Below, one piece after another: positions 1 through 22,406 of a stretch of DNA of 23,521 nucleotides (the stretch's first letter is position 1; every line of letters starts with the position of its first letter). The position numbers and the translations under genes were made by a program. The notes under the pieces were generated by a model. That model was not told the DNA's origin and ran no database searches. It saw nothing but the letters and a program-made list of their open reading frames with translations. The stretch is from a virus, in IMG/VR virus record IMGVR_UViG_3300005441_000033, positions 1 to 23,521 of that record; one strand, 5' to 3'.

Positions 1-199
1 CACCAGCTCCGAGGCCTCCGCCGACGACCAGCGTGGCGAGCACGACGAGCTTCTGATTGAACACGACCTTCGAGGGGATCTGCGCGGCGAGCTCCACCGT
101 CTCCACGACGGTCGGGAGAGTGGTCTCGACGGCGGTTGCCGCAGCCTGAGCGGCCTTCTTCGAGGCGGTGTTGGCGGCAGCGGTGGTGGTCTCAGACAC
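1..199 (-). CDS. Small membrane protein, C-terminus cut by window edge
   Basis: A GTG start at 199 opens a frame that is still open at base 1, giving about 66 residues. AAAGG about 8 bases upstream supports the start. The product begins SETTTAANTASKKAAQAAAT, an Ala/Thr-rich helical stretch, then has a hydrophobic segment (LVVLATLVVGGGLGAG) near residues 49-65 that looks like a membrane span. Codons end almost always in C or G, unlike several neighbours, which suggests high expression. It has its own promoter-like element at 251-284. I do not recognise the family. It resembles the other single-span proteins of the region in layout, not clearly in sequence. The end of the gene lies outside the window. 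Confidence 0.75.
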   Translation of the reverse strand, partial: MSETTTAAANTASKKAAQAAATAVETTLPTVVETVELAAQIPSKVVFNQKLVVLATLVVGGGLGAG

Positions 200-224
200 G
201 AAAATACCTTTCAGGTTAAAGTTT

Positions 225-256
225 GACCCCGAGTTGCATCTGCGATTCTCGGGGTC
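225..256 (-). promoter_or_regulatory. Hairpin at the 5' end of the predicted leader
   Basis: A perfect 9-bp inverted repeat (GACCCCGAG / CTCGGGGTC, 225-233 and 248-256) with a 14-base loop lies just downstream of the -10 box at 259-264. The predicted transcript for the gene starting at 199 would begin in or next to the first arm. It could protect the 5' end of the RNA or control translation. The other six promoter copies do not have the matching second arm. Confidence 0.45.
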
Positions 257-284
257 TCATTATAGGGCGTGTTTTTGGTGCGAG
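251..284 (-). promoter_or_regulatory. Promoter-like element, copy 7 (P251)
   Basis: On the minus strand this reads CTCGCA, an A-rich stretch, then TATAATGAGACCCC. The -10 box TATAAT is at 259-264, exactly 14 bases after CGCA as in the six other copies. It precedes the small membrane protein gene starting at 199. No TTGACA-type -35 box is present at normal spacing. Confidence 0.75.
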
Positions 285-363
285 CAGTTTCACATCTATG
301 CTCAGGATGGCCTGGCTTCGTGGTTCAACAGAACAAGGGTAAAAGCCGCATTAACGCATGAAC

Positions 364-483
364 TTACTCGCAGTCGTGTTTAGGAACGCGTATGGCGTTC
401 CCTAGTGAACTCTGCGTCCACTCATGTCGATCGTCGAATACGCCCTCAGCAAGACCGATAGCCGTGGGACATCCGCCACTCAT
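364..483 (-). CDS. Possible 39-residue protein
   Basis: ATG at 483 to TAA at 364 encodes a 39-residue peptide beginning MSGGCPTAIGLAEGV and ending with KHDCE, with two cysteines and an acidic middle (FDDRHEW). An AGAAGG site lies upstream, but it sits in a small hairpin (AAGGAT-ATCC-ATCCTT) directly before the ATG. The frame starts 37 bases after the stop of the upstream membrane gene, in the same direction. It runs through the hairpin at 383-401. I do not recognise it. It may be only the 3' untranslated end of the 1315-521 gene. Confidence 0.35.
   Translation of the reverse strand: MSGGCPTAIGLAEGVFDDRHEWTQSSLGNAIRVPKHDCE
383..401 (-). terminator. Hairpin after the 521-1315 gene, weak terminator
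   Basis: A 7-bp perfect stem (GGAACGC / GCGTTCC, loop of 5) lies 120 bases after the stop of the DUF6353-like gene and before promoter P251. On the minus strand it is followed by TAAACACG and not by a T-run, so intrinsic termination is uncertain. Confidence 0.4.
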
Positions 484-520
484 AAGGATGGATATCCTTC
501 TCAAGACGTTTCGGTCAGTA

Positions 521-1315
521 CTAGTGAAATCGACCGTAATCGCGAACCGGCTCGTTACGGAACTCGAACGCCAGCACTGGTCGTCCAGCTGGCGTGAGTG
601 CGGAGCAGAATCGCACCTTGAGCATGTCGTCGCTGTTCCACCCGATCTCCTGGGACCATGGGGGTGCTGGCATATCCAGGAGATAGTAGAAGTCAGCGAG
701 CGTAGCATATCCGTTCTTGAGAATGCCTTCGTTCAAGTCGTTCTGTGCTCCGCGAATACCCTCCGCTGTGTGCCAGACATATCGATCGCTGAATTTGTCG
801 TAACACACCTCACCGTCAGGTTTACCATGGATGACGATCGAATCGTCGTCGTCCCAACTCCAACCGGCGTTGATGCGGTCTTGGATAATATCCGCTCGTA
901 CCTGTTCCTCCTTCTTCTCCCCGACCTTCTCAATGACCTTCGCCTTGTATTCCTCGAATGCCTTCTCCGTGATGGAATACGCTGCCGCGAGACCAGCGGC
1001 ACGTCGTGAACCGATGTGGTTGGCGCCGATGATGCAGACGACCGTAGCGAGCCCCGTGGATACAGCGGGAACATACAGTCGCCACACCAGCTCGACACGT
1101 TTCTTCATCAATTCGCGAGGATCATCGAAATACGTCTCGCCGGCTTCTTCGTCCTCCGCTTCCTTGAGGCGAATGATATCGGCTGCCTGGAACGAGGCTC
1201 GTCCCGCGAGATATGCCGTGGTGATTGCTCCCACCACGCCGACAGAAGTCAGAATCGTTGGGGAATTGTCGATGGTGAATTTGGCTGCTCGCTTGATCAG
1301 ATGTTGAAAGCTCAT
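521..1315 (-). CDS. Two-span membrane protein, DUF6353-like
   Basis: 264 residues from the ATG at 1315, chosen because GAGGAA stands about 10 bases upstream and the preceding stop is at 1317-1319. A longer reading from 1351 would overlap the upstream gene. Two hydrophobic spans are visible at about residues 18-38 (TILTSVGVVGAITTAYLAG) and 79-98 (YVPAVSTGLATVVCIIGANH), joined by an acidic loop. A charged coiled stretch follows at about 110-140, then a soluble C-terminal domain with aromatic motifs (ADFYYLLDMP, VLAFEFR). The architecture matches a membrane protein family common in actinobacteriophages that I recall as DUF6353; its role is unknown. It probably shares a transcript with the gene at 1317-1682. 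The family name is from memory and was not searched. Confidence 0.85.
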   Translation of the reverse strand: MSFQHLIKRAAKFTIDNSPTILTSVGVVGAITTAYLAGRASFQAADIIRLKEAEDEEAGETYFDDPRELMKKRVELVWRLYVPAVSTGLATVVCIIGANHIGSRRAAGLAAAYSITEKAFEEYKAKVIEKVGEKKEEQVRADIIQDRINAGWSWDDDDSIVIHGKPDGEVCYDKFSDRYVWHTAEGIRGAQNDLNEGILKNGYATLADFYYLLDMPAPPWSQEIGWNSDDMLKVRFCSALTPAGRPVLAFEFRNEPVRDYGRFH

Positions 1316-1316
1316 C

Positions 1317-1682
1317 CTACAGTTCCTCAGTGTTTTTGAATATGTCCGCATCGGCGAGCTCGTCCAACTTTCTGCATTCCTCCCACAACTCGTTGATATC
1401 CACCGCCATGTGTCGTCCTCGGTACAACAGCTCGCCCTTACCGTCGAATCCCGGGACGTAGGGAACCAAGGAATCGCTGAAGAAGCCTCCTTCGAGAGCT
1501 TTCTGCTCTTTCTCTTCCCGAAGTTTCCTCTTCACCGATTCCTTCCATTCAACGTGCTTGCGCTCTGCGGAATATCCCATGATCAAATCATATCCCAAGG
1601 TTGTTCCGATCATGACCATGGCGATAACCGCAAGGAATCCAAGGATTTTGAAACAGATCAGCAGAACGTACAGAGCCATCAT
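1317..1682 (-). CDS. Single-span membrane protein with cytoplasmic tail
   Basis: 121 residues. The N-terminus (residues 2-35) is strongly hydrophobic (ALYVLLICFKILGFLAVIAM) and forms one membrane span with almost no residues before it. A basic, helical stretch follows (ERKHVEWKESVKRKLREEKE), so the tail is expected inside the cell. The C-terminal 50 residues look soluble and acidic. The start is one of two adjacent ATGs at 1682/1679, and the nearest purine-rich site (GAAAGG) is about 16 bases away, so initiation looks weak. It lies behind the terminator at 1731-1768 and ends two bases before the next start, so the two genes are likely co-translated. No family recognised. Confidence 0.8.
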   Translation of the reverse strand: MMALYVLLICFKILGFLAVIAMVMIGTTLGYDLIMGYSAERKHVEWKESVKRKLREEKEQKALEGGFFSDSLVPYVPGFDGKGELLYRGRHMAVDINELWEECRKLDELADADIFKNTEEL

Positions 1683-1730
1683 GATGTAGGGTGTCTGCCT
1701 TTCACGTAGGGGTAGTGCGGTAAAGCAAAA

Positions 1731-1768
1731 CGCTAAGACCCGTGTATGGTATTGCGGGGGTCTTAGCG
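1731..1768 (-). terminator. Intrinsic terminator after the 1776-1979 gene
   Basis: On the minus strand an 11-bp stem (CGCTAAGACCC pairing with GGGTCTTAGCG) with a 16-base loop is followed by TTTTGCTTT. It starts 8 bases after the stop of the 1776-1979 gene. Partial read-through would feed the genes at 1682-521, which show no promoter of their own. Confidence 0.85.
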
Positions 1769-1775
1769 CTCGAGA

Positions 1776-1979
1776 TCAGTTGTCCAGGTCCAGTTGCGTG
1801 TAGAATTCGTTGGTCAGTCCGCGCTCGGCCAGGAAATCGTTCCACTGACGCACGGCGCCACGGTTCACTCGGATCATCACGGCCGTGGTAACGACTGCGG
1901 TGGTGGTGACTGCGATGGCGACCTTGTGGTCGGAAACGAACTCCTGGACGCGGGCAGCGGCCTTCTTGACGGGGTTCAT
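1776..1979 (-). CDS. Small single-span membrane protein (67 aa)
   Basis: Start is the ATG at 1979, where AAAGGAG stands 8 bases upstream. An in-frame ATG at 2012 falls inside the promoter's conserved TATAATGAGA and is rejected. The product has a basic amphipathic N-terminus (MNPVKKAAARVQEF), one membrane span at about residues 20-38 (VAIAVTTTAVVTTAVMI), and a polar C-terminus ending in LDLDN. Codon choice is strongly biased to C/G-ending codons in the N-terminal half. It forms a complete cassette with promoter P2004 and the terminator at 1731-1768. The order basic helix, span, charged helix is shared with the 4944-5225 protein. Function unknown. Confidence 0.85.
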   Translation of the reverse strand: MNPVKKAAARVQEFVSDHKVAIAVTTTAVVTTAVMIRVNRGAVRQWNDFLAERGLTNEFYTQLDLDN

Positions 1980-2003
1980 AACAAGCTCCTTTGTAGGGGT
2001 CAT

Positions 2004-2036
2004 GGGTCTCATTATAACCCTTGTTTTTCTTGCGAG
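2004..2036 (-). promoter_or_regulatory. Promoter-like element, copy 6 (P2004)
   Basis: Minus strand: CTCGCA, 14 bases after CGCA to TATAAT (2011-2016), then GAGACCC. It lies between the stop of the 2042-2365 gene and the start at 1979. Confidence 0.75.
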
Positions 2037-2041
2037 GCTTG

Positions 2042-2365
2042 TTACTCGGTCTTCTCTTCCGTCTTCTTGGCGGTAGGCGTGCTGGTGTATTCTGGGGCGT
2101 CTGACAGCTTGAGCATGAGATAGAGGAAACCCGTTCCGAGACCACCGATCAATGCGAAGCTGCCCAATGTCATAAGAACATCGTACTTGTTGGTGGGCAC
2201 GCGGGGGATGCTGGCTACGTACGCTTCCACGTCATCGCGAACGACAGTCGCGGCTATCTTGGAGGCGATCTTGGGGTCGATACCGATGGGTACACCGAGA
2301 AAGGAAACGCTCTGCGCTTCGTTCAATGCCACTTCGATCTTCTGTGCCATCAAATCCCAGTTCAT
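2042..2365 (-). CDS. C-terminally anchored single-span protein (107 aa)
   Basis: ATG at 2365 follows AAGGATTGAT and sits two bases after the TGA of the NUMOD-like gene. The first 65 residues look soluble and helical (KIASKIAATVVRDDVEAYVA). One membrane span lies at about residues 66-88 (LMTLGSFALIGGLGTGFLYL), followed by a polar Thr/Lys/Glu tail ending KKTEEKTE. The N-terminal opening (MNWDLMAQKIEVAL) resembles that of the 2537-2872 protein (MRNWDEIAREIERELKHF), and both carry their span towards the C-terminus, so these two may be distant paralogues. Last gene of the five-gene group that starts at 3363. Function unknown. Confidence 0.82.
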   Translation of the reverse strand: MNWDLMAQKIEVALNEAQSVSFLGVPIGIDPKIASKIAATVVRDDVEAYVASIPRVPTNKYDVLMTLGSFALIGGLGTGFLYLMLKLSDAPEYTSTPTAKKTEEKTE

Positions 2366-2366
2366 A

Positions 2367-2537
2367 TCAATCCTTCACTCGCTCGAAGGTGTAGCCCCTG
2401 TAGGATTTCTTCCGACCAGCAAGACAGTCGCTGATAGCAGAAGGGGTGATGCCAAGCTTCTTCGCACACGCCGACTGTGTCTCAAATATCTCGCCGGTCT
2501 CAACGACTCTGATACGACGACCAGTTCCCGCTTCCAT
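2367..2537 (-). CDS. 56-residue NUMOD-like DNA-binding protein
   Basis: ATG at 2537 overlaps the TAA of the preceding gene (TAATG); TGA at 2367 is two bases before the next ATG. Almost the whole protein is one domain: a short strand pair (RIRVVETGEIFE), a helix-turn-helix-like part (ACAKKLGITPSAISDCLAG) and a closing RGYTFERV. This order (RCxETGxxF, then AAxxLGxxxSxIS, then GYTF) is that of NUMOD1-type modules found beside HNH and GIY-YIG homing nucleases. No nuclease domain is present here or next door. It matches the last 47 residues of the 4104-4487 protein in layout. The tight coupling to membrane-protein genes on both sides shows it is a normal member of the operon. DNA binding is inferred. 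Confidence 0.8.
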   Translation of the reverse strand: MEAGTGRRIRVVETGEIFETQSACAKKLGITPSAISDCLAGRKKSYRGYTFERVKD

Positions 2538-2872
2538 TACTTCGCCTTACGGATTCGGTGATTCACCTGCCGAGCGTATGCGTGGGATCCTCGAGCTCGA
2601 CCAATCGCGATAATGATTTTGGTCGTTGCGCTCAGAATGGCGACGCCCAATACGATGACCTGCAATGGATTTTCTTCGAAAGCTTGGTTGAGTTTTTCCA
2701 TGAAGTTCTTCACGAAGCGAGAATTAGAGAAGCCTGGGTTCCTTTTCTGTATGACGCGGAGAGCGATCTGCGATGCGCGCTGGGCATCCAGAGTCAGATC
2801 GCCATGCGGACCACTTTCGAAGTGCTTGAGCTCACGCTCGATCTCACGAGCGATCTCATCCCAGTTTCTCAT
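2537..2872 (-). CDS. C-terminally anchored single-span protein (111 aa)
   Basis: ATG at 2872 has AAGGA 7 bases upstream. The protein has an acidic amphipathic N-terminus (IAREIERELKHF), a soluble middle containing a QRASQIALRVIQ helix, and one membrane span at about residues 72-92 (LQVIVLGVAILSATTKIIIA) followed by a very basic tail (GRARGSHAYARQVNHRIRKAK), so the C-terminus is expected inside the cell. Its TAA overlaps the next ATG. The start resembles that of the 2042-2365 protein. No family recognised. Confidence 0.82.
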   Translation of the reverse strand: MRNWDEIAREIERELKHFESGPHGDLTLDAQRASQIALRVIQKRNPGFSNSRFVKNFMEKLNQAFEENPLQVIVLGVAILSATTKIIIAIGRARGSHAYARQVNHRIRKAK

Positions 2873-2896
2873 TTACACATCCTTATCCGACGTTCT

Positions 2897-3124
2897 TCAT
2901 TCCAAAAAAGAAGGTGGCTGAACCTTTCCGGACGACAATGCATTGCATAGTTCCTGTACGGCTTTTTTCGCTTGCTCTTCTGAACGCGACGACGAAACAT
3001 ACGCATAGAACTTATCCAACAGTTTTCCGATGTTCTCGGCGAGTTCAAATGTTTCGTCGTGGGCGGGAATATGCGCCCCGATTAACACCTGTCCGCGTGC
3101 GATCTCATGGTAAACGTTAGTCAC
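2897..3124 (-). CDS. Small soluble helical protein (75 aa)
   Basis: The GTG start at 3124 overlaps the TGA of the upstream gene (GTGA, 4-base overlap), and GGAGG lies 8 bases upstream, which fixes the start. The product has no membrane span, unlike most neighbours. It contains an acidic helix (ETFELAENIGKLLDKFYAYV) and an Ala/Glu/Lys helix (SEEQAKKAVQELCNALSSG), with a Pro-rich end. It is mid-operon between two membrane-protein genes, so a cytoplasmic partner role is possible but is only inferred. No family recognised. Confidence 0.8.
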   Translation of the reverse strand: MTNVYHEIARGQVLIGAHIPAHDETFELAENIGKLLDKFYAYVSSSRSEEQAKKAVQELCNALSSGKVQPPSFLE

Positions 3125-3363
3125 TTACACAACCTCCCCACGATCTTGCAGACGACGAACGTCGCACCGATGGTCAGGGCGGCATGCGTGATGAAGTCCT
3201 TGGCGATCTCGGAATATGCCGCGGCAATCTGAGGACCCACCATTGGGTCGAAGAGATTTTCACTGCCCTCGATCGGGGTCGTCTCCGGAGTGCTGCCGTT
3301 GAGCTTGGCATTCTCACGAACGAGACGGGTGTTGGTCTGAACCGCGAACTTTCGTCCGAACAT
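3121..3363 (-). CDS. Small membrane protein (80 aa)
   Basis: ATG at 3363 with AGAAGGAG about 9 bases upstream. Residues 1-45 are polar (RLVRENAKLNGSTPETTP); a hydrophobic span follows at about residues 58-75 (ITHAALTIGATFVVCKIVG), ending in RLCK. It begins a run of five coupled genes (3363 to 2042). The promoter for the run is not obvious: only a terminator (3408-3432) stands upstream, so transcription probably reads through from P3630. Function unknown. Confidence 0.82.
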   Translation of the reverse strand: MFGRKFAVQTNTRLVRENAKLNGSTPETTPIEGSENLFDPMVGPQIAAAYSEIAKDFITHAALTIGATFVVCKIVGRLCK

Positions 3364-3407
3364 GATTGTATCTCCTTCTCATCGCATGAAATTTCCCAGG
3401 AGAAAAC

Positions 3408-3432
3408 CTAGAGCCCGTGTTAGGGGCTCTAG
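3408..3432 (-). terminator. Intrinsic terminator after the 3439-3612 gene
   Basis: Minus strand: a 9-bp stem CTAGAGCCC / GGGCTCTAG with a TAACAC-type loop, followed by GGTTTTCTCC. It starts 7 bases after the stop of the small membrane gene and before the 3363 gene. Confidence 0.85.
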
Positions 3433-3438
3433 TTGAGG

Positions 3439-3612
3439 TCAGTTGGAGGTGGTTTCCTGGTCGAGGGCGTCGATCATGCTCTCCACGTCGTCGGTCTGCA
3501 GCTGGTTCTTCTCGGCGGCCTTCCGCGCCCGGTAGCGGGTGGCGAGGAAGAGGGCGGTCGAACCGGCGACAACGGCGACGGTGGCGATGGCGGTGATCTT
3601 GTCCTTGTTCAT
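3439..3612 (-). CDS. Small single-span membrane protein (57 aa)
   Basis: The ATG at 3612 was chosen (MNKDKITAIATVAVVAGSTA) because an upstream in-frame ATG at 3639 lies in the promoter element. The ribosome site is weak (GAGAATGG, about 8 bases away). One membrane span covers residues 6-25, followed by a basic stretch (RYRARKAAEK) and an acidic C-terminus (DDVESMIDALDQE), so N-out/C-in topology is likely. Codons are strongly C/G-ending. Complete cassette with P3630 and the terminator at 3408-3432. Function unknown. Confidence 0.82.
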   Translation of the reverse strand: MNKDKITAIATVAVVAGSTALFLATRYRARKAAEKNQLQTDDVESMIDALDQETTSN

Positions 3613-3629
3613 GGCAAATCCATTCTCTA

Positions 3630-3663
3630 GGGGTCTCATTATAGGACGTGTATTTTTTGCGAG
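3630..3663 (-). promoter_or_regulatory. Promoter-like element, copy 5 (P3630)
   Basis: Minus strand: CCTCGCA, A-rich spacer, TATAAT (3638-3643), GAGACCCC. It lies in the 70-base gap between the stop at 3683 and the start at 3612. Confidence 0.75.
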
Positions 3664-3682
3664 GCCTCAGGAAAATGTCGTG

Positions 3683-4021
3683 TCAGTACCGCCACTGATC
3701 GCGTGCGCGTTTCATTTCCTGTTCGAGTCGCAATGCTTCCGCGGTGGGTTGAGTACTTACGCCCGTGATAACCTGTCCAGTTTCACGATCTATGCCATGA
3801 TGGAATATCGTACGGTTCCATGCGTGGTGGGCTGCGATGGCTTCTTGAAACAGCTCTTCTTCTTTCGCTCGTTTGCGAGCTCGCTCATTCAAAATAAGTC
3901 GCACTTCAGCGCGGAGATCTTCGCGAACGAGAAGAACGAGAAGAACCATGAATATCAACAATGCAATGGCGCACAGACCACCCAAGGTCCATGCGAGGAA
4001 ATACAAGACATTCTGTAGCAT
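3683..4021 (-). CDS. N-terminally anchored membrane protein (112 aa)
   Basis: ATG at 4021 (MLQNVLYFLAW) with AAAGG 10 bases upstream; a TTG at 4045 is the only earlier alternative. One long hydrophobic span runs over residues 3-31 (LCAIALLIFMVLLVLLV), followed by a highly charged helix (EDLRAEVRLILNERARKRAK) and a soluble tail with the motif DRETGQVITG. Expected to be a membrane-tethered cytoplasmic helix. It follows the Zn-ribbon/NUMOD gene. A poor -10 candidate (TAAAAT) is seen near 4052-4057. Function unknown. Confidence 0.82.
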   Translation of the reverse strand: MLQNVLYFLAWTLGGLCAIALLIFMVLLVLLVREDLRAEVRLILNERARKRAKEEELFQEAIAAHHAWNRTIFHHGIDRETGQVITGVSTQPTAEALRLEQEMKRARDQWRY

Positions 4022-4070
4022 TACGTGTGGGCCTTTCTTGATCAATGTATTTTAGCCCAAATACAATCCA

Positions 4071-4101
4071 TTCTCGCAGGAGGACGATGGGTGTGCGAGA
4101 A
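4071..4101 (-). promoter_or_regulatory. Hairpin between 4104-4487 and 3683-4021 genes
   Basis: Perfect 8-bp inverted repeat TTCTCGCA / TGCGAGAA with a 15-base loop, directly after the TAA at 4104. No T-run follows on the minus strand, so it is more likely an RNA-processing or weak pausing site than a full terminator. The second arm re-creates the TGCGAGAA string seen near the promoter elements, but no TATAAT is at the matching distance. Confidence 0.4.
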
Positions 4102-4103
4102 TA

Positions 4104-4487
4104 TTACTGGAGACGAGTAAAGGTATAACCACTAACATGTGATCGTTGACCGTTGATGTGTTTGGATAAGCTGCTACGCCATAAACCCATCTCTTTCGCA
4201 GCATCTTTCAGACTGCTGAAAATAACACCCGTTTCGTTACAACGAATCTTGTAGGATGGGCGTCCCAAGGGGATATCGCGTTTCGCATGAGTTTCAGCAT
4301 CGCGTGCGTATTGATCGAACATGCGGAAAACGACAGTGGGTTTTTCATCGCGAAGTCGCTGGATGAAGAAGTCTCCGTGATTCGGACAAAATCTCGCGCC
4401 AGACTTGGTAAAGAGAAGGTGGGGTAGCAACTCTGTTTTGCAAATAGGACAGTAGGCAAAGAGTTCTACCATAGTGGCATTGTCCAT
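4104..4487 (-). CDS. Zinc-ribbon plus NUMOD-like DNA-binding protein
   Basis: 127 residues; ATG at 4487 with AGGAG 6 bases upstream. Two parts are visible. Residues 10-40 hold a Cys/His cluster (C13 and C16 in AYCPICK, C34 and H37 in RFCPNHGD) that looks like a zinc ribbon. Residues 80-126 hold a NUMOD1-type module (KIRCNETGVIF, then LKDAAKEMGLWRSSLSKHI, then SGYTFTRL). In known families such modules bind DNA for homing endonucleases, but no HNH, GIY-YIG or LAGLIDADG motif is present. The middle (residues 45-78) is unassigned. A second, shorter NUMOD-like protein is encoded at 2367-2537. A regulator, or the remains of a homing endonuclease, are both possible; regulation of nearby cassettes is speculation. 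Confidence 0.8.
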   Translation of the reverse strand: MDNATMVELFAYCPICKTELLPHLLFTKSGARFCPNHGDFFIQRLRDEKPTVVFRMFDQYARDAETHAKRDIPLGRPSYKIRCNETGVIFSSLKDAAKEMGLWRSSLSKHINGQRSHVSGYTFTRLQ

Positions 4488-4586
4488 CTAGCTCCTCTCA
4501 AAAAAGTTAGACGGAAAATCTCCGGCGGGGAATTTTGGAAAAAATAACGAATCCTTGTTATCGGATTCGAGGAGAAGTCCTGGCAC
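4488..4586 (-). CDS. Possible short reading frame overlapping a terminator
   Basis: A GTG at 4586 opens a 32-codon frame (start PGLLLESDNKDSLFFPKF) whose TAG directly abuts the ATG at 4487. There is no convincing ribosome site. The frame crosses the intrinsic terminator hairpin at 4548-4569, so translation could influence termination, as in attenuation. It may equally be chance in the leader RNA. Confidence 0.2.
   Translation of the reverse strand: MPGLLLESDNKDSLFFPKFPAGDFPSNFFERS
4538..4569 (-). terminator. Intrinsic terminator inside the leader of the 4104-4487 gene
   Basis: Minus strand: 7-bp stem CGAATCC / GGATTCG (4563-4569 and 4548-4554), 8-base loop, then TTATTTTTTCC. It lies downstream of promoter P4624 and upstream of the start at 4487, so transcripts from P4624 would stop after about 80 bases unless the terminator is relieved. 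A second imperfect hairpin is seen at about 4512-4537. Confidence 0.8.
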
Positions 4587-4623
4587 TAGTTGCTCAACAG
4601 GATGTACGGCCTTTCCGTTTCCT

Positions 4624-4653
4624 TCTCATTATAGTCCGTGTATTTTGTGCGAG
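4624..4653 (-). promoter_or_regulatory. Promoter-like element, copy 4 (P4624)
   Basis: Minus strand: CCTCGCA, 14 bases after CGCA to TATAAT (4628-4633), then GAGAAGGA. This copy lacks the CCCC that follows GAGA in most others. The first good gene downstream starts 137 bases later, at 4487. Confidence 0.72.
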
Positions 4654-4660
4654 GTAAAAC

Positions 4661-4687
4661 AATAAGCCCTTGTTTTCAGGGCTTATT
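4661..4687 (-). terminator. Intrinsic terminator after the 49-residue gene
   Basis: Minus strand: 9-bp stem AATAAGCCC / GGGCTTATT followed by GTTTTACC. It ends 8 bases before the next promoter element begins, so termination and re-initiation are back to back. Confidence 0.85.
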
Positions 4688-4697
4688 GCCTTAGACC

Positions 4698-4847
4698 TTA
4701 CTTAATCAGCTTGATGCTTGCCGAATCTGGAAGTGCCACTACGGCGCTGTAATTCTCCAGCGAGAAGGGAATACGGAATGTGAGGAAGAATCCGTTCTCC
4801 CAGTCTCGCAAGTCGAACTCGATGGCGGTGTAATTCATAATGGGCAT
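4698..4847 (-). CDS. 49-residue soluble protein
   Basis: ATG at 4847 with AAAGG 7 bases upstream, TAA at 4698. The peptide starts MPIMNYTAIEFDLRDWENGF and ends SIKLIK. It looks like alternating strand segments (FFLTFRIPFSLENYSAVVAL) with no membrane span, unlike its neighbours. It is the only gene between promoter P4866 and the terminator at 4661-4687, which makes a complete transcription unit of about 220 bases. This context, the good ribosome site and the frame ending just before the terminator are the reasons for calling it. No family recognised. Confidence 0.78.
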   Translation of the reverse strand: MPIMNYTAIEFDLRDWENGFFLTFRIPFSLENYSAVVALPDSASIKLIK

Positions 4848-4865
4848 GATACAGCCTTTCTTGCA

Positions 4866-4898
4866 GGGGTCTCATTATAAGACATGTTTTCCCTGCGA
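4866..4898 (-). promoter_or_regulatory. Promoter-like element, copy 3 (P4866)
   Basis: Minus strand: TTTCGCA, GGG plus A-run, TATAAT (4874-4879), GAGACCCC. It drives the 49-residue gene starting at 4847. Confidence 0.75.
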
Positions 4899-4906
4899 AA
4901 GGCAAA

Positions 4907-4935
4907 TATGAAAGCCTGTGTTAGAGGCTTTCATA
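4907..4935 (-). terminator. Intrinsic terminator after the 4944-5225 gene
   Basis: Minus strand: 10-bp stem TATGAAAGCC / GGCTTTCATA with a loop containing TAACAC, followed by TTTGCCTTT. It begins 8 bases after the stop and ends 8 bases before the next promoter element. Confidence 0.82.
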
Positions 4936-4943
4936 CTTCAGAT

Positions 4944-5225
4944 TTACGGTTGGAAATCTTCGGGAGCGATGCTCAACAGAAGCGTGTTGATGTCATCGAT
5001 CTTGAAGTACACACCGTCAAGGTTCAAGTCTACAATCTGGTCGAGTGCTTTCTCAGCGTCGATCCACTTCTTGCTTTTGAGTTCTTCGGCGATTTTTACC
5101 CATTGACGCTCGTAAGCAACACTCATGGCGACGCCTGCGATAACAGCACCAGTCATGTAGGCATATATTGTACGGTTGGACTTTACGTGATCGACGACAG
5201 TATTGAACTTCTTTTTGATGTTCAT
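4944..5225 (-). CDS. Small single-span membrane protein (93 aa)
   Basis: ATG at 5225 with AAAGGA 6 bases upstream. Basic N-terminus (MNIKKKFNTVVDHVKSNR), one membrane span at about residues 20-38 (TIYAYMTGAVIAGVAMSVA), then a charged helix (IAEELKSKKWIDAEKALDQI) and an acidic C-terminus with the motif DLNLDGVYFKIDDINTLLL. Complete cassette: promoter P5243, gene, terminator 4907-4935. Its general layout resembles the 1776-1979 protein. Expected N-in topology from the basic start is uncertain. Function unknown. Confidence 0.85.
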   Translation of the reverse strand: MNIKKKFNTVVDHVKSNRTIYAYMTGAVIAGVAMSVAYERQWVKIAEELKSKKWIDAEKALDQIVDLNLDGVYFKIDDINTLLLSIAPEDFQP

Positions 5226-5242
5226 GTCGATTCCTTTCGTAA

Positions 5243-5274
5243 GGTTCTCATTATAAGACGTGTTTTCCTTGCGA
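5243..5274 (-). promoter_or_regulatory. Promoter-like element, copy 2 (P5243)
   Basis: Minus strand: TTTCGCA, spacer, TATAAT (5250-5255), GAGAACC. Starts of RNA near 5243 would leave a short leader of about 18-20 bases before the ATG at 5225. Confidence 0.75.
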
Positions 5275-5290
5275 AAGGCAAAAATAGAAA

Positions 5291-5310
5291 GGCGTGTAGT
5301 TTCACACGCC
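5291..5310 (-). terminator. Intrinsic terminator after the 5347-5760 gene
   Basis: Minus strand: 7-bp stem GGCGTGT / ACACGCC with a 6-base loop, followed by TTTCTATTTTTGCC. It lies 36 bases after the stop and 16 bases before the next promoter element. Confidence 0.85.
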
Positions 5311-5346
5311 CTCCCATTTTGATCATCTGTGCGGGGGATTACTGGT

Positions 5347-5760
5347 CTACCTCATCTTGTTCACGAAGCCGAGGGCTTTCGATGCGATGACGTTGGCCTT
5401 CTCGTGGTGGAGGACGAGCAGGATACCGACGACAGTGGCCGCGGCGCCGACAATCGCGTCAGGACTGGGCCTCCAGGAACGTTCTTTCACTTGATCTGCA
5501 TTGAACTTATTTTGCTCGAGCTCGATCTTGTCGCACTCGACCGCGTGGTCAAATCCGATCTTGATCTTGTCGTTCTCGAGTTTGGTTCGCTCGTTTTCGG
5601 TCTTGTGAATGTCGTTCCTGAGTTGCATCAGTTTGACGAGATTGCCGACGGTCTTGGTGTATTCGTCGGAGTCTCCTGCTACGCTCTTCAACTCATCGAT
5701 CAGAGCAGCGATGCGAGCATCGAGGTCTTCGGGAATCGTGATAGTATCAGGGCTAGACAT
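5347..5760 (-). CDS. Coiled-coil protein with C-terminal membrane span (137 aa)
   Basis: ATG at 5760 with AAGGAGA 5 bases upstream. Residues 10-90 are a long charged helical region (EDLDARIAALIDELKS, then NDIHKTENERTKLENDKIKI) typical of a coiled coil. A Pro-rich break (RPSPDAIVG) leads to one membrane span at about residues 103-119 (IVGAAATVVGILLVLHH) and a short helical tail. It is the first cassette after the holin-like genes and has its own promoter (P5779) and terminator (5291-5310). I have the impression that proteins with this layout occur in other actinobacteriophages after the lysis genes, but I cannot name a family. A lysis-accessory or exclusion role is a guess. Confidence 0.82.
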   Translation of the reverse strand: MSSPDTITIPEDLDARIAALIDELKSVAGDSDEYTKTVGNLVKLMQLRNDIHKTENERTKLENDKIKIGFDHAVECDKIELEQNKFNADQVKERSWRPSPDAIVGAAATVVGILLVLHHEKANVIASKALGFVNKMR

Positions 5761-5778
5761 GGGATCTCCTTAGGCATA

Positions 5779-5812
5779 GGGGTCTCATTATAGCCTATGT
5801 TTTCCCTGCGAG
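5779..5812 (-). promoter_or_regulatory. Promoter-like element, copy 1 (P5779)
   Basis: Minus strand: TCTCGCA, GGG plus A-run, TATAAT (5787-5792), GAGACCCC. It starts 12 bases after the stop of the r1t-type holin gene and marks the change from the structural block to the cassette region. Confidence 0.75.
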
Positions 5813-20390: not shown

Positions 20391-22406
20391 CTAGGCCGAC
20401 GGACGCTTGAAGGTCCAGGGACCGTCGACCACCGTGTCGGTGAAGAAGTAGCCCGACGCCGGAGTCGCCTTGACGTTGATCGAGGCACCGGCCGACAGAG
20501 CGCTCTGCGCACCCGCCGACAGCGTCGCGTTGGTGTCAGCGTTCTTGTAGACCACGCCGGTCACGGACGGGATGGTCACCACGCCGGTGCTGGAGACGAA
20601 GCTCGGCTTGACCGGGGTCGCCAGGGTGTCCGTGGACGCCGAGGTCGCCCGAATGACCAGAGCCGCCTTCACCTTGGTCAGGGCACCCGAAACTCGGGTC
20701 TCCATCAGGTACTTCAGCTGGTTGTAGTCGATGTCGAAGTCGTCGAACAGGTTGACCTCGCCGCCCTTGTCGGCGCCGATGTTGTAGTCCTGCAGATTGA
20801 CGATGATACCGATGAGACCCGAGACCTCGTTCATCGGTTCGACGGTGACGATCCGGTCGACACCCAGCGCCTCGGCGACCTCGGCACGGTTCTTGTAGTA
20901 GCGCCGGCCCTCGAGGTCCTTGGCCTTCATGAACTTGTTGAGGTTCTTGATCGTGGTGTAGAAGGTCGGCGTACCCGTTCCCTTGTAGAACTCCATGCCG
21001 TCCATGACGGCATCCACGACCTCCTCGTAGTTCGAGTTGGCGTCGTCCACGTTCACCGTCAGAGTGGTGACGTAAACCTCGTGGTCGTTCGCGATGGAAC
21101 GGATGCCGTCGCCCGAGGACGCACCGATCGGGTCCTTGATCTTGTCCTCGTCGGACACGTCACGACCGTCGCCGATCAGGATGGCACGCGCCAGTTCCTC
21201 CTCGAGCATGAGGCGCATCTCGGCCTTGAGCCACGCCACCATGTCGAAGTCGGTGATGTCCAGCAGGTCATCCCGGTCCAGCTTCTGCTTCTTGTAGACC
21301 GTGGTCGGGCTCGTGGTCCGCTTGGTGACGCCGAACCACTCTTCCTTCTTGTAGTTGCCCTTGATGTAGCCCTTGGCACGGGCGTCGTCCTGGGTCAGAT
21401 CGGCCACGAGGGTCTTCACCCGCGAGAACGGCGTGTGACGGGTGCCGTTGAGAACGTCAGCCACCCACTCGGTACGCCGCTTGTCGAACTCGGGCGTACC
21501 GGTGATGTTCCGCGCGTCCGGGAACAGGACCGAGATGTTGTCGATACCGTGCGCGAGCGCGTAGTTCGTCACGGCGTCCTTGAAGGAACCGATCTTCATG
21601 GCCGAAGCCACGATCCCCTTCACGTCCTCGTGGGACAGCGTGTGCTGCTGGGCCGAACCTTCGCCCTGGTCGTTCTTCGTCTGGTCGAAGACGTTTCGCA
21701 TTTCGTCGTTTCCTTCCTGGTGGGCGTCGCCCTCGTTGGTGGCCGAGTGTTCGGCAGAAGCAGCGGCGGCCCGCTCGAGCGCCGCGCCGATCATGTAGTG
21801 GAGGACGTTCTTTTCCTTCTCGGACATCGCGTCGTAGATGTCCTGGATGGTCTCGCCGTCGTCTTCCGCGTCGTCCATGTTGTCGCCATCGGCATGCTCG
21901 ACGGTGTCGTCATCCTCGTCTTCGTCACCTTCATCCTCGACGAACTCCAAGAGCTCACCGCTGTGGATGATGGCCTCGTCGTCCAGCTCCGTCACATCGT
22001 CCGGATCCGAAGTGTGCTGAATCCGAACATAGTCGATCTTCGCCCCGGGATTGGCACCGGCGAGGACGAGACTGACCTCACGGATGTTGCCGTGGTGAAC
22101 GACCTTGGACTTCTCCACGAGCTGATTGGCGTAGATCGACAGCTTGTCGATGTCCTTGTGCTGGACCAGAAGCTTGGCGTTCTGGCCCTGCTTGGTCGTG
22201 TTGAAGTAGCCGTGTGCTCGAACACCATCGGGAACAACCTCGAGGATGGCGTGGCCCAGAACATTGTCGGCACTGTTGTGACCGTGCTGCCAGACCAACG
22301 GAACCTGCTGCCCGTGCATGTGCTTGAAAGCCTCGGGCGTGATGATCCGATCGTCGGAGCACTTGAGACCTGCCTTGGTGGCGTACCCGCTGAAATCGGG
22401 TTCCAT
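20391..22406 (-). CDS. Prohead protease-scaffold-major capsid fusion
   Basis: 671 residues; ATG at 22406 with GAGGAG about 9 bases upstream. Residues 1-130 are an HK97-type prohead protease: VPLVWQHGH supplies the likely catalytic His (H41) and REVSLVLAGANPGA the Ser (S112). Residues 137-235 are a very acidic linker and scaffold-like part (DEDEDDDTVE, then ETIQDIYDAMSEKEKNVLHY). Residues about 236-595 are the HK97-fold capsid protein (YKKQKLDRDDLLDITDFDMV, LEEELARAILIGDGRD, LMETRVSGALTKVKAALVIR). Residues 597-671 are a C-terminal beta domain shared with the tail tube protein. A possible internal start at 21701 (M236) would give capsid protein alone. Codons are almost all C/G-ending, the strongest bias in the window. 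Confidence 0.92.
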   Translation of the reverse strand: MEPDFSGYATKAGLKCSDDRIITPEAFKHMHGQQVPLVWQHGHNSADNVLGHAILEVVPDGVRAHGYFNTTKQGQNAKLLVQHKDIDKLSIYANQLVEKSKVVHHGNIREVSLVLAGANPGAKIDYVRIQHTSDPDDVTELDDEAIIHSGELLEFVEDEGDEDEDDDTVEHADGDNMDDAEDDGETIQDIYDAMSEKEKNVLHYMIGAALERAAAASAEHSATNEGDAHQEGNDEMRNVFDQTKNDQGEGSAQQHTLSHEDVKGIVASAMKIGSFKDAVTNYALAHGIDNISVLFPDARNITGTPEFDKRRTEWVADVLNGTRHTPFSRVKTLVADLTQDDARAKGYIKGNYKKEEWFGVTKRTTSPTTVYKKQKLDRDDLLDITDFDMVAWLKAEMRLMLEEELARAILIGDGRDVSDEDKIKDPIGASSGDGIRSIANDHEVYVTTLTVNVDDANSNYEEVVDAVMDGMEFYKGTGTPTFYTTIKNLNKFMKAKDLEGRRYYKNRAEVAEALGVDRIVTVEPMNEVSGLIGIIVNLQDYNIGADKGGEVNLFDDFDIDYNQLKYLMETRVSGALTKVKAALVIRATSASTDTLATPVKPSFVSSTGVVTIPSVTGVVYKNADTNATLSAGAQSALSAGASINVKATPASGYFFTDTVVDGPWTFKRPSA
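21699..21718 (-). promoter_or_regulatory. Possible internal ribosome site for separate capsid protein
   Basis: In frame inside the fusion gene, AGGAAGG (21712-21718) stands about 10 bases before an ATG (21701-21699, residue 236), which is followed by RNVFDQTKND. The position falls at the border between the scaffold-like part and the capsid part. Use of this start is inferred, not shown. Confidence 0.5.

Follow-up and report, generated by a model that had tools for sequence, protein, structure and literature searches.

A recurrent TATAAT-bearing element as a candidate promoter for the two-barrel RNA polymerase of a phage lineage

Introduction

The stretch of viral DNA analysed here, called the window throughout, comprises 23,521 nucleotides. 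Its minus strand repeatedly carries a perfect TATAAT hexamer, embedded in a longer conserved element. In a preliminary description the element was regarded as promoter-like and the hexamer as a hint of a housekeeping sigma factor. This raises the question of which RNA polymerase uses the element and where its transcripts begin.

Results

The element and its transcription units in the window

A search of the whole window for CGCA-N14-TATAATGAGA revealed seven exact copies, all on the minus strand, and none outside these seven; 100 dinucleotide shuffles of the window contained no copy. The fixed distance between CGCA and TATAAT, as described before, is thus exact in 7/7 copies. The upstream block is likewise real and comprises, in addition, a T directly 5′ of CGCA and the bases ACA at positions 7-9 of the N14 segment, both in all seven copies; the full element is TCGCA-RRAWWWACANGSCC-TATAATGAGA. 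The reported lack of a -35 box was confirmed: a conventional sigma70 scan called a sigma70-type -35/-10 pair at none of the seven elements, and no conserved -35 column was found in 203 element instances; neither a TTGACA-like hexamer at 16-18 bp nor an extended -10 box was recognised. Also in agreement with the preliminary description, the structural block of the window has no copy of the element. The following elements and genes were assigned:

5783..5810, minus strand: element copy 1; TATAAT 5787-5792; RNA 5′ end predicted at 5786-5788
5347..5760, minus strand: ORF of 137 aa with Shine-Dalgarno sequence, phrog_5818-like, under copy 1
5246..5273, minus strand: element copy 2; TATAAT 5250-5255; terminator-like stem 5307-5292 before the copy
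4944..5225, minus strand: small ORF of 93 aa under copy 2
4870..4897, minus strand: element copy 3; TATAAT 4874-4879
4698..4847, minus strand: small ORF of 49 aa under copy 3
4624..4651, minus strand: element copy 4; TATAAT 4628-4633; no ORF driven
4540..4629, minus strand: predicted noncoding RNA of ~90 nt with its own terminator, under copy 4
3634..3661, minus strand: element copy 5; TATAAT 3638-3643
3439..3612, minus strand: small ORF of 57 aa under copy 5, followed by a terminator (3432-3408)
2007..2034, minus strand: element copy 6; TATAAT 2011-2016
1776..1979, minus strand: small ORF of 67 aa under copy 6
255..282, minus strand: element copy 7; TATAAT 259-264
2..199, minus strand: small ORF with GTG start, running off the record, under copy 7
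524..1312, minus strand: phrog_2152 protein, a lineage marker; no element directly before the gene
20394..22406, minus strand: capsid-protease fusion, 64% identical to that of a Streptomyces phage

The earlier assignment of all copies to small-protein cassettes has to be modified: six of the seven precede small ORFs, and the copy at 4624 would drive the noncoding RNA. Of the bases described as conserved after the hexamer, GAGA stands, whereas CCCC is missing from the copies at 4624 and 5246. The leader of copy 7 can form a 9-bp hairpin that begins within GAGA (GACCCCGAG/CUCGGGGUC). By eye, stem-loops were noted directly before copy 3 (about 4935-4902, with a T-rich stretch) and copy 4 (about 4691-4655, with a T-run), as was a C-terminal membrane segment in the 137-aa ORF. 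The phrog_2152 family corresponds to the DUF6353-type membrane proteins, to which Tanis gp48 belongs.

Distribution in one phage lineage

Comparison with related phages, which the preliminary description had proposed, bore the element out: it recurs, often in many copies per genome, across a single phage lineage with the hosts Gordonia, Streptomyces, Arthrobacter, Rhodococcus, Microbacterium, Curtobacterium and Bifidobacterium, and as a dialect in Lactococcus phages. Since a 14-base pattern gave chance matches in very large contigs, a stricter 18-base pattern was adopted for specificity. With it, more than 118 viral stretches were found to carry the element, many of them in several copies, and a mutated control pattern had no match in the viral sequences. 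The reversed 14-base pattern occurred in 106 stretches, as a single copy in all 80 among the matches listed. A search of 84,980 genomes of bacteria and archaea detected the full element in 10 stretches, which is near chance; two of these ten sit in one genome that carries the polymerase described below. As judged from its sequence, the window belongs to this lineage, and the 64% identity of its capsid fusion places it in the lineage whose complete members encode this polymerase.

A matrix in which TATAAT was masked located 84 sites in 11 genomes on the gene strand and none on the other strand. The sites lie at a fixed distance to ribosome sites and start codons, with terminators before and ORFs or terminated RNAs after them. 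Of these sites, located without using the hexamer, 56 of 84 have TATAAT, while A2 is present in 77/84 and T6 in 83/84. T1, A2 and T6, the best conserved hexamer bases here, are also the best conserved in the sigmaA -10 box. Between clades the element occurs in dialects with unchanged spacing and TTTTACA core, Firmicute phages included: P162 has TTTA..TATAAT, CHPC971 has CACA..TATAGT, and a further dialect is found in Bifidobacterium phages. Some genomes carry TTAAAT, TTTAAT or TGTAAT in place of TATAAT and keep the rest of the element; A2 is missing from the majority of the elements in Rosa and from those of Pippin15 that read TTTAAT.

A two-barrel RNA polymerase encoded by the lineage

Complete members of the lineage encode an RNA polymerase of ~900 residues (PHROG 4291); in Tanis it is gp92, next to which lies the 82-aa gp93. 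Its sequence SGADFDGD, which contains the catalytic DxDxD motif, is invariant in alignments of 10 and of 40 sequences. The AlphaFold model (pLDDT 79) matches QDE-1 with an E value of 8e-10 and P23-45 gp64/P74 gp62 with about 5e-7, the TM-scores being modest at about 0.3. By motif and overall fold of the model, PHROG 4291 is assigned to the two-barrel RNA polymerase superfamily. The enzyme has helix-turn-helix (HTH) segments at both ends; a phmmer search against the PDB returned only a designed repeat, matching the HTH.

The polymerase is present in 39 of 50 contigs with the element, compared to weak partial matches in the HTH range in 2 of 50 contigs with the reversed pattern; the 11 element contigs without it appear to be mostly incomplete contigs or single chance matches. 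Record counts for named phages are in line with this (Gordonia 55/55, Streptomyces 54/54, Rhodococcus 4/4, Microbacterium 4/4), and among contigs chosen by the polymerase alone, 23/26 have element-like matches. Many loci have an element variant that precedes the polymerase gene by about 0.9 kb, and in 23 of 61 polymerase loci a site lies within 1.9 kb. The right-arm proteins shared by 10 genomes were searched for further HTH or sigma proteins and none was detected, although a divergent factor could be missed; besides the polymerase, the shared proteins are unknown, membrane, chaperone-like and replication proteins only. The distribution of a control gene, the capsid fusion, is almost identical to that of the polymerase. 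Co-occurrence alone is therefore not proof, because the polymerase is inseparable from other genes of the lineage. The phage of the window presumably has the polymerase as well; its gene would lie outside the partial record.

Noncoding RNAs and the predicted start site

Folding of the noncoding RNA in the window pairs its 5′ GAGAAG (4627-4622) with CUUCUC (4577-4572), and 3′ of this closing helix a terminator hairpin (4569-4548) is followed by a T-run. No Rfam match was obtained for this RNA, nor, in the loci searched, for a recurrent RNA with the motif GAGACAC-AAU-GUGU. At the fifth base of the closing stem of the recurrent RNA, covariation between A-U and G-C was seen by eye; this is not proof, since the MAFFT alignment of the family is poor at that stem.

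In short element-driven noncoding RNAs, the 3′ ends pair with AUGAGA or GAGA directly at the edge of TATAAT. A 6-mer exactly complementary to the GAGA stretch of the same RNA was found in 40 of 115 noncoding RNAs versus 8 of 371 mRNA cassettes (p 2e-20). The onset of complementarity is sharp, with 2, 5 and 5 cases at offsets 0-2, 32 at offset 4 and 40 at offset 6, and AT follows the 3′ arm in 21/40 of these RNAs versus a background of 6%. Past GAGA, the match exceeds that of every swap of 3′ ends. At offsets 4-5 it is no higher than with swapped 3′ ends, as AUGAGA is constant, and the exact start base is therefore uncertain. CCCC after GAGA is present in mRNA cassettes but not in noncoding-RNA cassettes; GAGA itself is part of the promoter or start. 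From the pairing at the TATAAT edge, the first transcribed base should lie within TATAAT or directly behind it. The RNA 5′ end is accordingly predicted at the TATAAT/GAGA junction and should thus be too early for sigmaA, for which a start 6-8 bases downstream of the hexamer is expected.

Discussion

Which polymerase uses the element?

From the sequence comparisons above, we consider it quite probable that the phage's own RNA polymerase uses the element as its promoter and that TATA immediately precedes the start. The user would be the single-chain two-barrel enzyme PHROG 4291, a relative of YonO, QDE-1 and the P23-45 type, and not host sigmaA. TCGCA and WWWACA may form the upstream block, presumably recognised by the polymerase itself, and TATA the melting region immediately 5′ of the start. 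Transcription would start either on the final bases of TATAAT or on the G after them, giving AUGAGA or GAGA as RNA 5′ end. Each copy would initiate one short, mostly terminator-bounded unit, usually with a gene for a small, often membrane-type protein and sometimes with a noncoding RNA. The exact start base and the timing of the cassettes, which the preliminary description had taken to be their own, are conjectural. For the lineage of actinobacterial and lactococcal siphophages it appears fairly likely that a YonO/QDE-1-like enzyme transcribes the cassette region from TCGCA-N6-ACA-N5-TATA|ATGAGA, a mimic of the sigmaA -10 box with the start inside TATAAT.

The housekeeping sigma factor proposed earlier is disfavoured by these results. 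Host sigmaA polymerase could use TATAAT and a GAGA discriminator without a -35 box, and TCGCA-WWWACA would then be bound by an activator of the phage or by a host factor, much as in MotA promoters of T4. Promoters of actinobacteria often lack a -35 box, TATAAT is perfect in most copies, T1, A2 and T6 are conserved, GAGA resembles the favourable GGGA discriminator, and the authors describing phages Vardy and Conley took the motif as a sigma70 -10 box. Nevertheless, we regard this explanation as rather unlikely: the clade variants TTAAAT, TTTAAT and TGTAAT lose the critical second A and keep the rest, RNA complementarity places GAGA within the transcript, and the element occurs in a single phage lineage only, complete members of which encode a polymerase of their own, and is not used by host genomes. 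Moreover, no other conserved regulator was found among the right-arm proteins shared by 10 genomes, and Lactococcus phages, from a different phylum, have the same layout.

One point against use by the phage enzyme is that it would need a first round of expression or packaging in the virion. Use by both polymerases, host sigmaA early via TATAAT and the phage enzyme later or more strongly via the upstream block, would solve the first expression of the polymerase operon, which has its own element, and would account for a near-consensus TATAAT next to extra conserved blocks. Two start sites would then be expected, but complementarity gives one boundary, and the TTAAAT clades would lose the host part; such dual use seems improbable. 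Even less can be said for an operator or repeat bound by a repressor, replication or packaging factor. Many copies of the same sequence per genome recall the stoperators of cluster A phages, yet the single orientation (84 to 0), the fixed distance to ribosome sites and starts, and the flanking terminators and terminated units make this highly improbable.

If the phage polymerase does use the element, a candidate promoter becomes available for a YonO-type polymerase; its natural variants number in the hundreds, its start site is predicted, and culturable SEA-PHAGES hosts exist for its study. Phage annotation would be affected as well, since even a perfect TATAAT would no longer suffice to indicate a host promoter, and an orthogonal expression system for actinobacteria might become possible.

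Comparison with known systems

Like the element, the middle (MotA) promoters of T4 have a good -10-like hexamer, a box upstream of it and no -35 box. They differ in box and spacing; no MotA-like factor was found among the right-arm genes common to 10 genomes, and the start predicted here lies inside the hexamer. T7-type promoters (...CTATA|GGGAGA) resemble the element in their compact size of ~23-30 bp, the TATA directly upstream of the start, the purine-rich GAGA start region and the many copies per genome. T7 polymerase has an unrelated fold and the upstream promoter sequences differ; the resemblance is probably convergent.

Dedicated promoter motifs are known for the virion polymerase gp96 and the non-virion polymerase gp64 of phage P23-45 (PMC10770324). 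As here, these are two-barrel phage polymerases whose motifs co-occur with the enzyme, and gp64 is among the closest solved folds. Their motifs, however, are AT-rich/GC-rich and lack TATAAT-GAGA, and the polymerase is partly fused to the tape measure protein. In SPbeta, YonO transcribes the late genes from a single start as one operon, and its promoter sequence and need for other factors were left to be determined in 2017 (PMC5467207). Like PHROG 4291, YonO is a single-chain two-barrel phage polymerase with a DxDGD active site, and it is specific for phage genes. In contrast, many dispersed copies serve small cassettes here, and PHROG 4291 has HTH segments at both ends.

The literal string TATAATGAGA had only unrelated matches in the literature. 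An intergenic motif was reported for the cluster DJ Gordonia phages Vardy (50 bp) and Conley (43 bases), each with five copies; it contains TATAAT and was described for single phages and read as a sigma70-like -10 box (PMC9671010, PMC10868162). Like our element, it is intergenic and lies in the middle of the genome, where small and membrane genes abound. Tanis and relatives, of the same lineage as Vardy and Conley, carry the present element, and from these we judge that the two are very probably identical. Unlike the present study, those reports neither link the motif to the phage polymerase nor trace it more widely, and they infer no start site. Thus, the TATAAT motif itself has already been reported, while its connection to a phage polymerase and the predicted start site appear to be new.

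The element and its distribution

A scan of the window with CGCA-N14-TATAATGAGA matched exactly at seven places within 255-5810, each on the minus strand, with no further copies elsewhere in the window and none in 100 shuffles; the number, strand and spacing given in the preliminary description are thereby confirmed. In 7/7 copies CGCA is preceded by T and the N14 positions 7-9 read ACA, both features lying outside that pattern. The idea that these elements drive small-protein cassettes agrees with six copies, each followed by a small ORF (with a clear ribosome site for five of the six, as scored by script), and not with the copy at 4624, which has no ORF downstream and precedes a predicted RNA of ~90 nt. 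Since several copies stand directly behind a terminator-like stem, most cassettes look like independent units.

Features of the window
3634, minus strand: element copy preceding a 57-aa ORF
4569-4548: terminator hairpin ending the predicted RNA of copy 4624
220-260, minus strand: leader of copy 255, with a 9-bp hairpin (GACCCCGAG/CUCGGGGUC) beginning inside GAGA
2370-2537 and 4107-4487, minus strand: two ORFs whose C-terminal segments resemble homing-endonuclease DNA-binding repeats

Among the listed matches to the pattern in viral contigs, many contigs are multi-copy. The consensus of 203 non-redundant instances is T-CGCA-RRAWWWACANGSCC-TATAATGAGA, where T (87%), A (85%), C (90%) and A (84%) are independently conserved in columns outside the search pattern; no conserved -35 column was found. 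An 18-base version occurs in >118 viral stretches and, with two TCGCA bases changed as control, in none. Across all 84,980 prokaryote genomes searched it occurs in 10 stretches only, two of them from one genome, which carries the polymerase treated below. The reversed 14-base pattern gave 106 stretches, and 80/80 of those listed were single-copy. Four exact copies before small ORFs also occur on QHXL01000552.1, a contig of 4.1 kb assigned to an Acidobacteria MAG and probably a misbinned phage fragment.

A predicted phage RNA polymerase accompanies the element

At their end, element-bearing phages encode a ~900-residue protein (PHROG 4291), annotated as an HTH protein or as an RNA-dependent RNA polymerase. 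Its SGADFDGD is invariant, HTH segments lie near both ends, and an AlphaFold model (pLDDT 79) matches QDE-1, RDR2, P23-45 gp64 and P74 gp62; by sequence and fold it is thus a two-barrel RNA polymerase, of predicted activity. A near-invariant HYGxxRxSGRYPWGSG motif occupies residues ~10-26, and as the ReqiPoco6 annotation labels the polymerase a structural protein on account of its likeness to Lactococcus phage 1706 gp75, this motif might be a virion-packaging signal. The 82-aa Tanis gp93 (L127:41310-41558), adjoining the polymerase downstream and present in 10/10 genomes compared, is a candidate cofactor.

In named phage records, element and polymerase counts were 55 and 55 for Gordonia, 54 and 54 for Streptomyces, and 4 and 4 for both Rhodococcus and Microbacterium; nine weak Mycobacterium hits are probably due to chance. 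In IMG/VR the polymerase was present in 39/50 element contigs, against no full-length copy in 50 contigs with the reversed pattern, which gave two weak, partial matches in the HTH range. Contigs picked by polymerase alone had element-like sites in 23/26 cases, mostly on the polymerase strand. The window's capsid fusion (20394..22406, minus strand), 64% identical to that of a Streptomyces phage, places the window in this lineage by sequence. Its distribution nearly equals that of the polymerase, so that co-occurrence cannot single the polymerase out from other core genes; a search of the right-arm proteins common to ten genomes gave no further HTH or sigma protein. The polymerase region lies outside the window, a fragment of 23.5 kb, and we infer the enzyme from the relatives of this phage.

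Noncoding RNAs and the predicted start site

About 115 elements have no ORF downstream, and many of these are followed by predicted short terminated RNAs whose ends pair, the 5' arm starting at the TATAAT edge. An exact downstream complement of the six bases from GAGA on exists for 40/115 noncoding RNAs versus 8/371 mRNA cassettes. Moving along from the first T of TATAAT, successive offsets give 2, 5, 5, 17, 32, 26, 40 and 38 such RNAs, with lower numbers beyond. AT follows the 3' arm in 21/40 (background 6%). Complementarity beyond GAGA exceeds every swap of 3' ends; that within AUGAGA is inseparable from the constant sequence, yet much higher than further upstream. An independent helix score gave 12.8 versus 9.5 (sd 0.3) for swaps, foldings of RNAs from Lactococcus, Arthrobacter, Rhodococcus and saliva phages agree, and in the window's own predicted RNA GAGAAG pairs with CUUCUC. 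From this pairing, GAGA should lie within the transcript, whose 5' end would fall at GAGA or slightly upstream, ~6-8 bases earlier than a sigmaA start.

The bases downstream of the -10 had been described as conserved, which stands for GAGA, within the predicted transcript, and not for the following CCCC: each position is C in 56-75% of mRNA cassettes versus 12-22% of noncoding ones, so CCCC is best assigned to the mRNA rather than the promoter.

Two kinds of predicted RNA follow the element. One, element-driven and recurrent, combines a GAGACAC-AAU-GUGU hairpin and a UCACAGUUUU-GAUGGG-CUGUGA motif with the closing stem GAGA[AG]G / C[UC]UCUCAU; Rfam gave no match to it at the loci searched. The other, tRNA-like, begins a few bases after the element and has D- and T-arm consensus, but its anticodon arms are odd and a terminator closing helix takes the place of CCA; ARAGORN called a sense tRNA only for that of ReqiPoco6.

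Recurrent GAGACAC-AAU-GUGU RNA (loci in other phage or contig sequences)
L008:1467-1580
L016:2164-2283
L018:8594-8706
L080:2339-2455
L348:11303
L370:1092-984, minus strand
L373:9517
L383:10133

tRNA-like RNAs after the element (loci as before)
L140:20072
L141:26326
L142:6261
L129:14623
L143:9523
L145:10779

Which polymerase reads the element

A matrix search of 11 genomes with the TATAAT columns masked gave 84 gene-strand sites and 0 on the opposite strand. The hexamer is TATAAT in 56/84, the rest being TATAGT, TATGAT, TATTAT, TATGGT, TTAAAT, TTTAAT and others. The spacing is unchanged in the dialects of Lactococcus phages P162 (TTTA-AGTTTTACATACCC-TATAATGAAA) and CHPC971 (CACA-TGTTTTACACATAC-TATAGTAGAA), and in Bifidobacterium phage BitterVaud1, whose genome includes the polymerase motif, the element reads TCGCG-N14 followed by TATAAT/TATGAT. 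In many loci a variant, TATAATAGAAGG, lies ~0.9 kb upstream of the polymerase, possibly allowing self-amplification of the enzyme; in its longer form, TATAATAGAAGG[AG][AG]TAGAATG, this variant precedes the VRR-Nuc/Cas4-exonuclease/polymerase operon, with a conserved leader (e.g. in loci L172, L225 and L178).

The main rival reading, that host sigmaA uses the element and the upstream block is a regulator site, retains some support, as T1, A2 and T6 of the hexamer are conserved. The second A is the key base of the sigmaA -10. Streptomyces phage Rosa has lost it in 4/6 sites while keeping the remainder of the element, and Pippin15 has TTTAAT in several sites. Together with the missing -35 column and a predicted start that is too early, these hexamers speak against the housekeeping sigma factor that the perfect TATAAT had suggested. 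The most economical reading is that the element would serve as promoter of the phage's own polymerase, with the putative layout TCGCA-N6-ACA-N5-TATA|ATGAGA.

A motif of the cluster DJ Gordonia phages Vardy and Conley, which belong to the same lineage, was read as sigma70 (PMC9671010, PMC10868162) and is very probably the present element. The promoter of YonO-type enzymes was left open in the YonO paper (PMC5467207), and no paper linking element and polymerase was found in the open-licence literature searched. The element resembles the T7 promoter in layout, not in ancestry.
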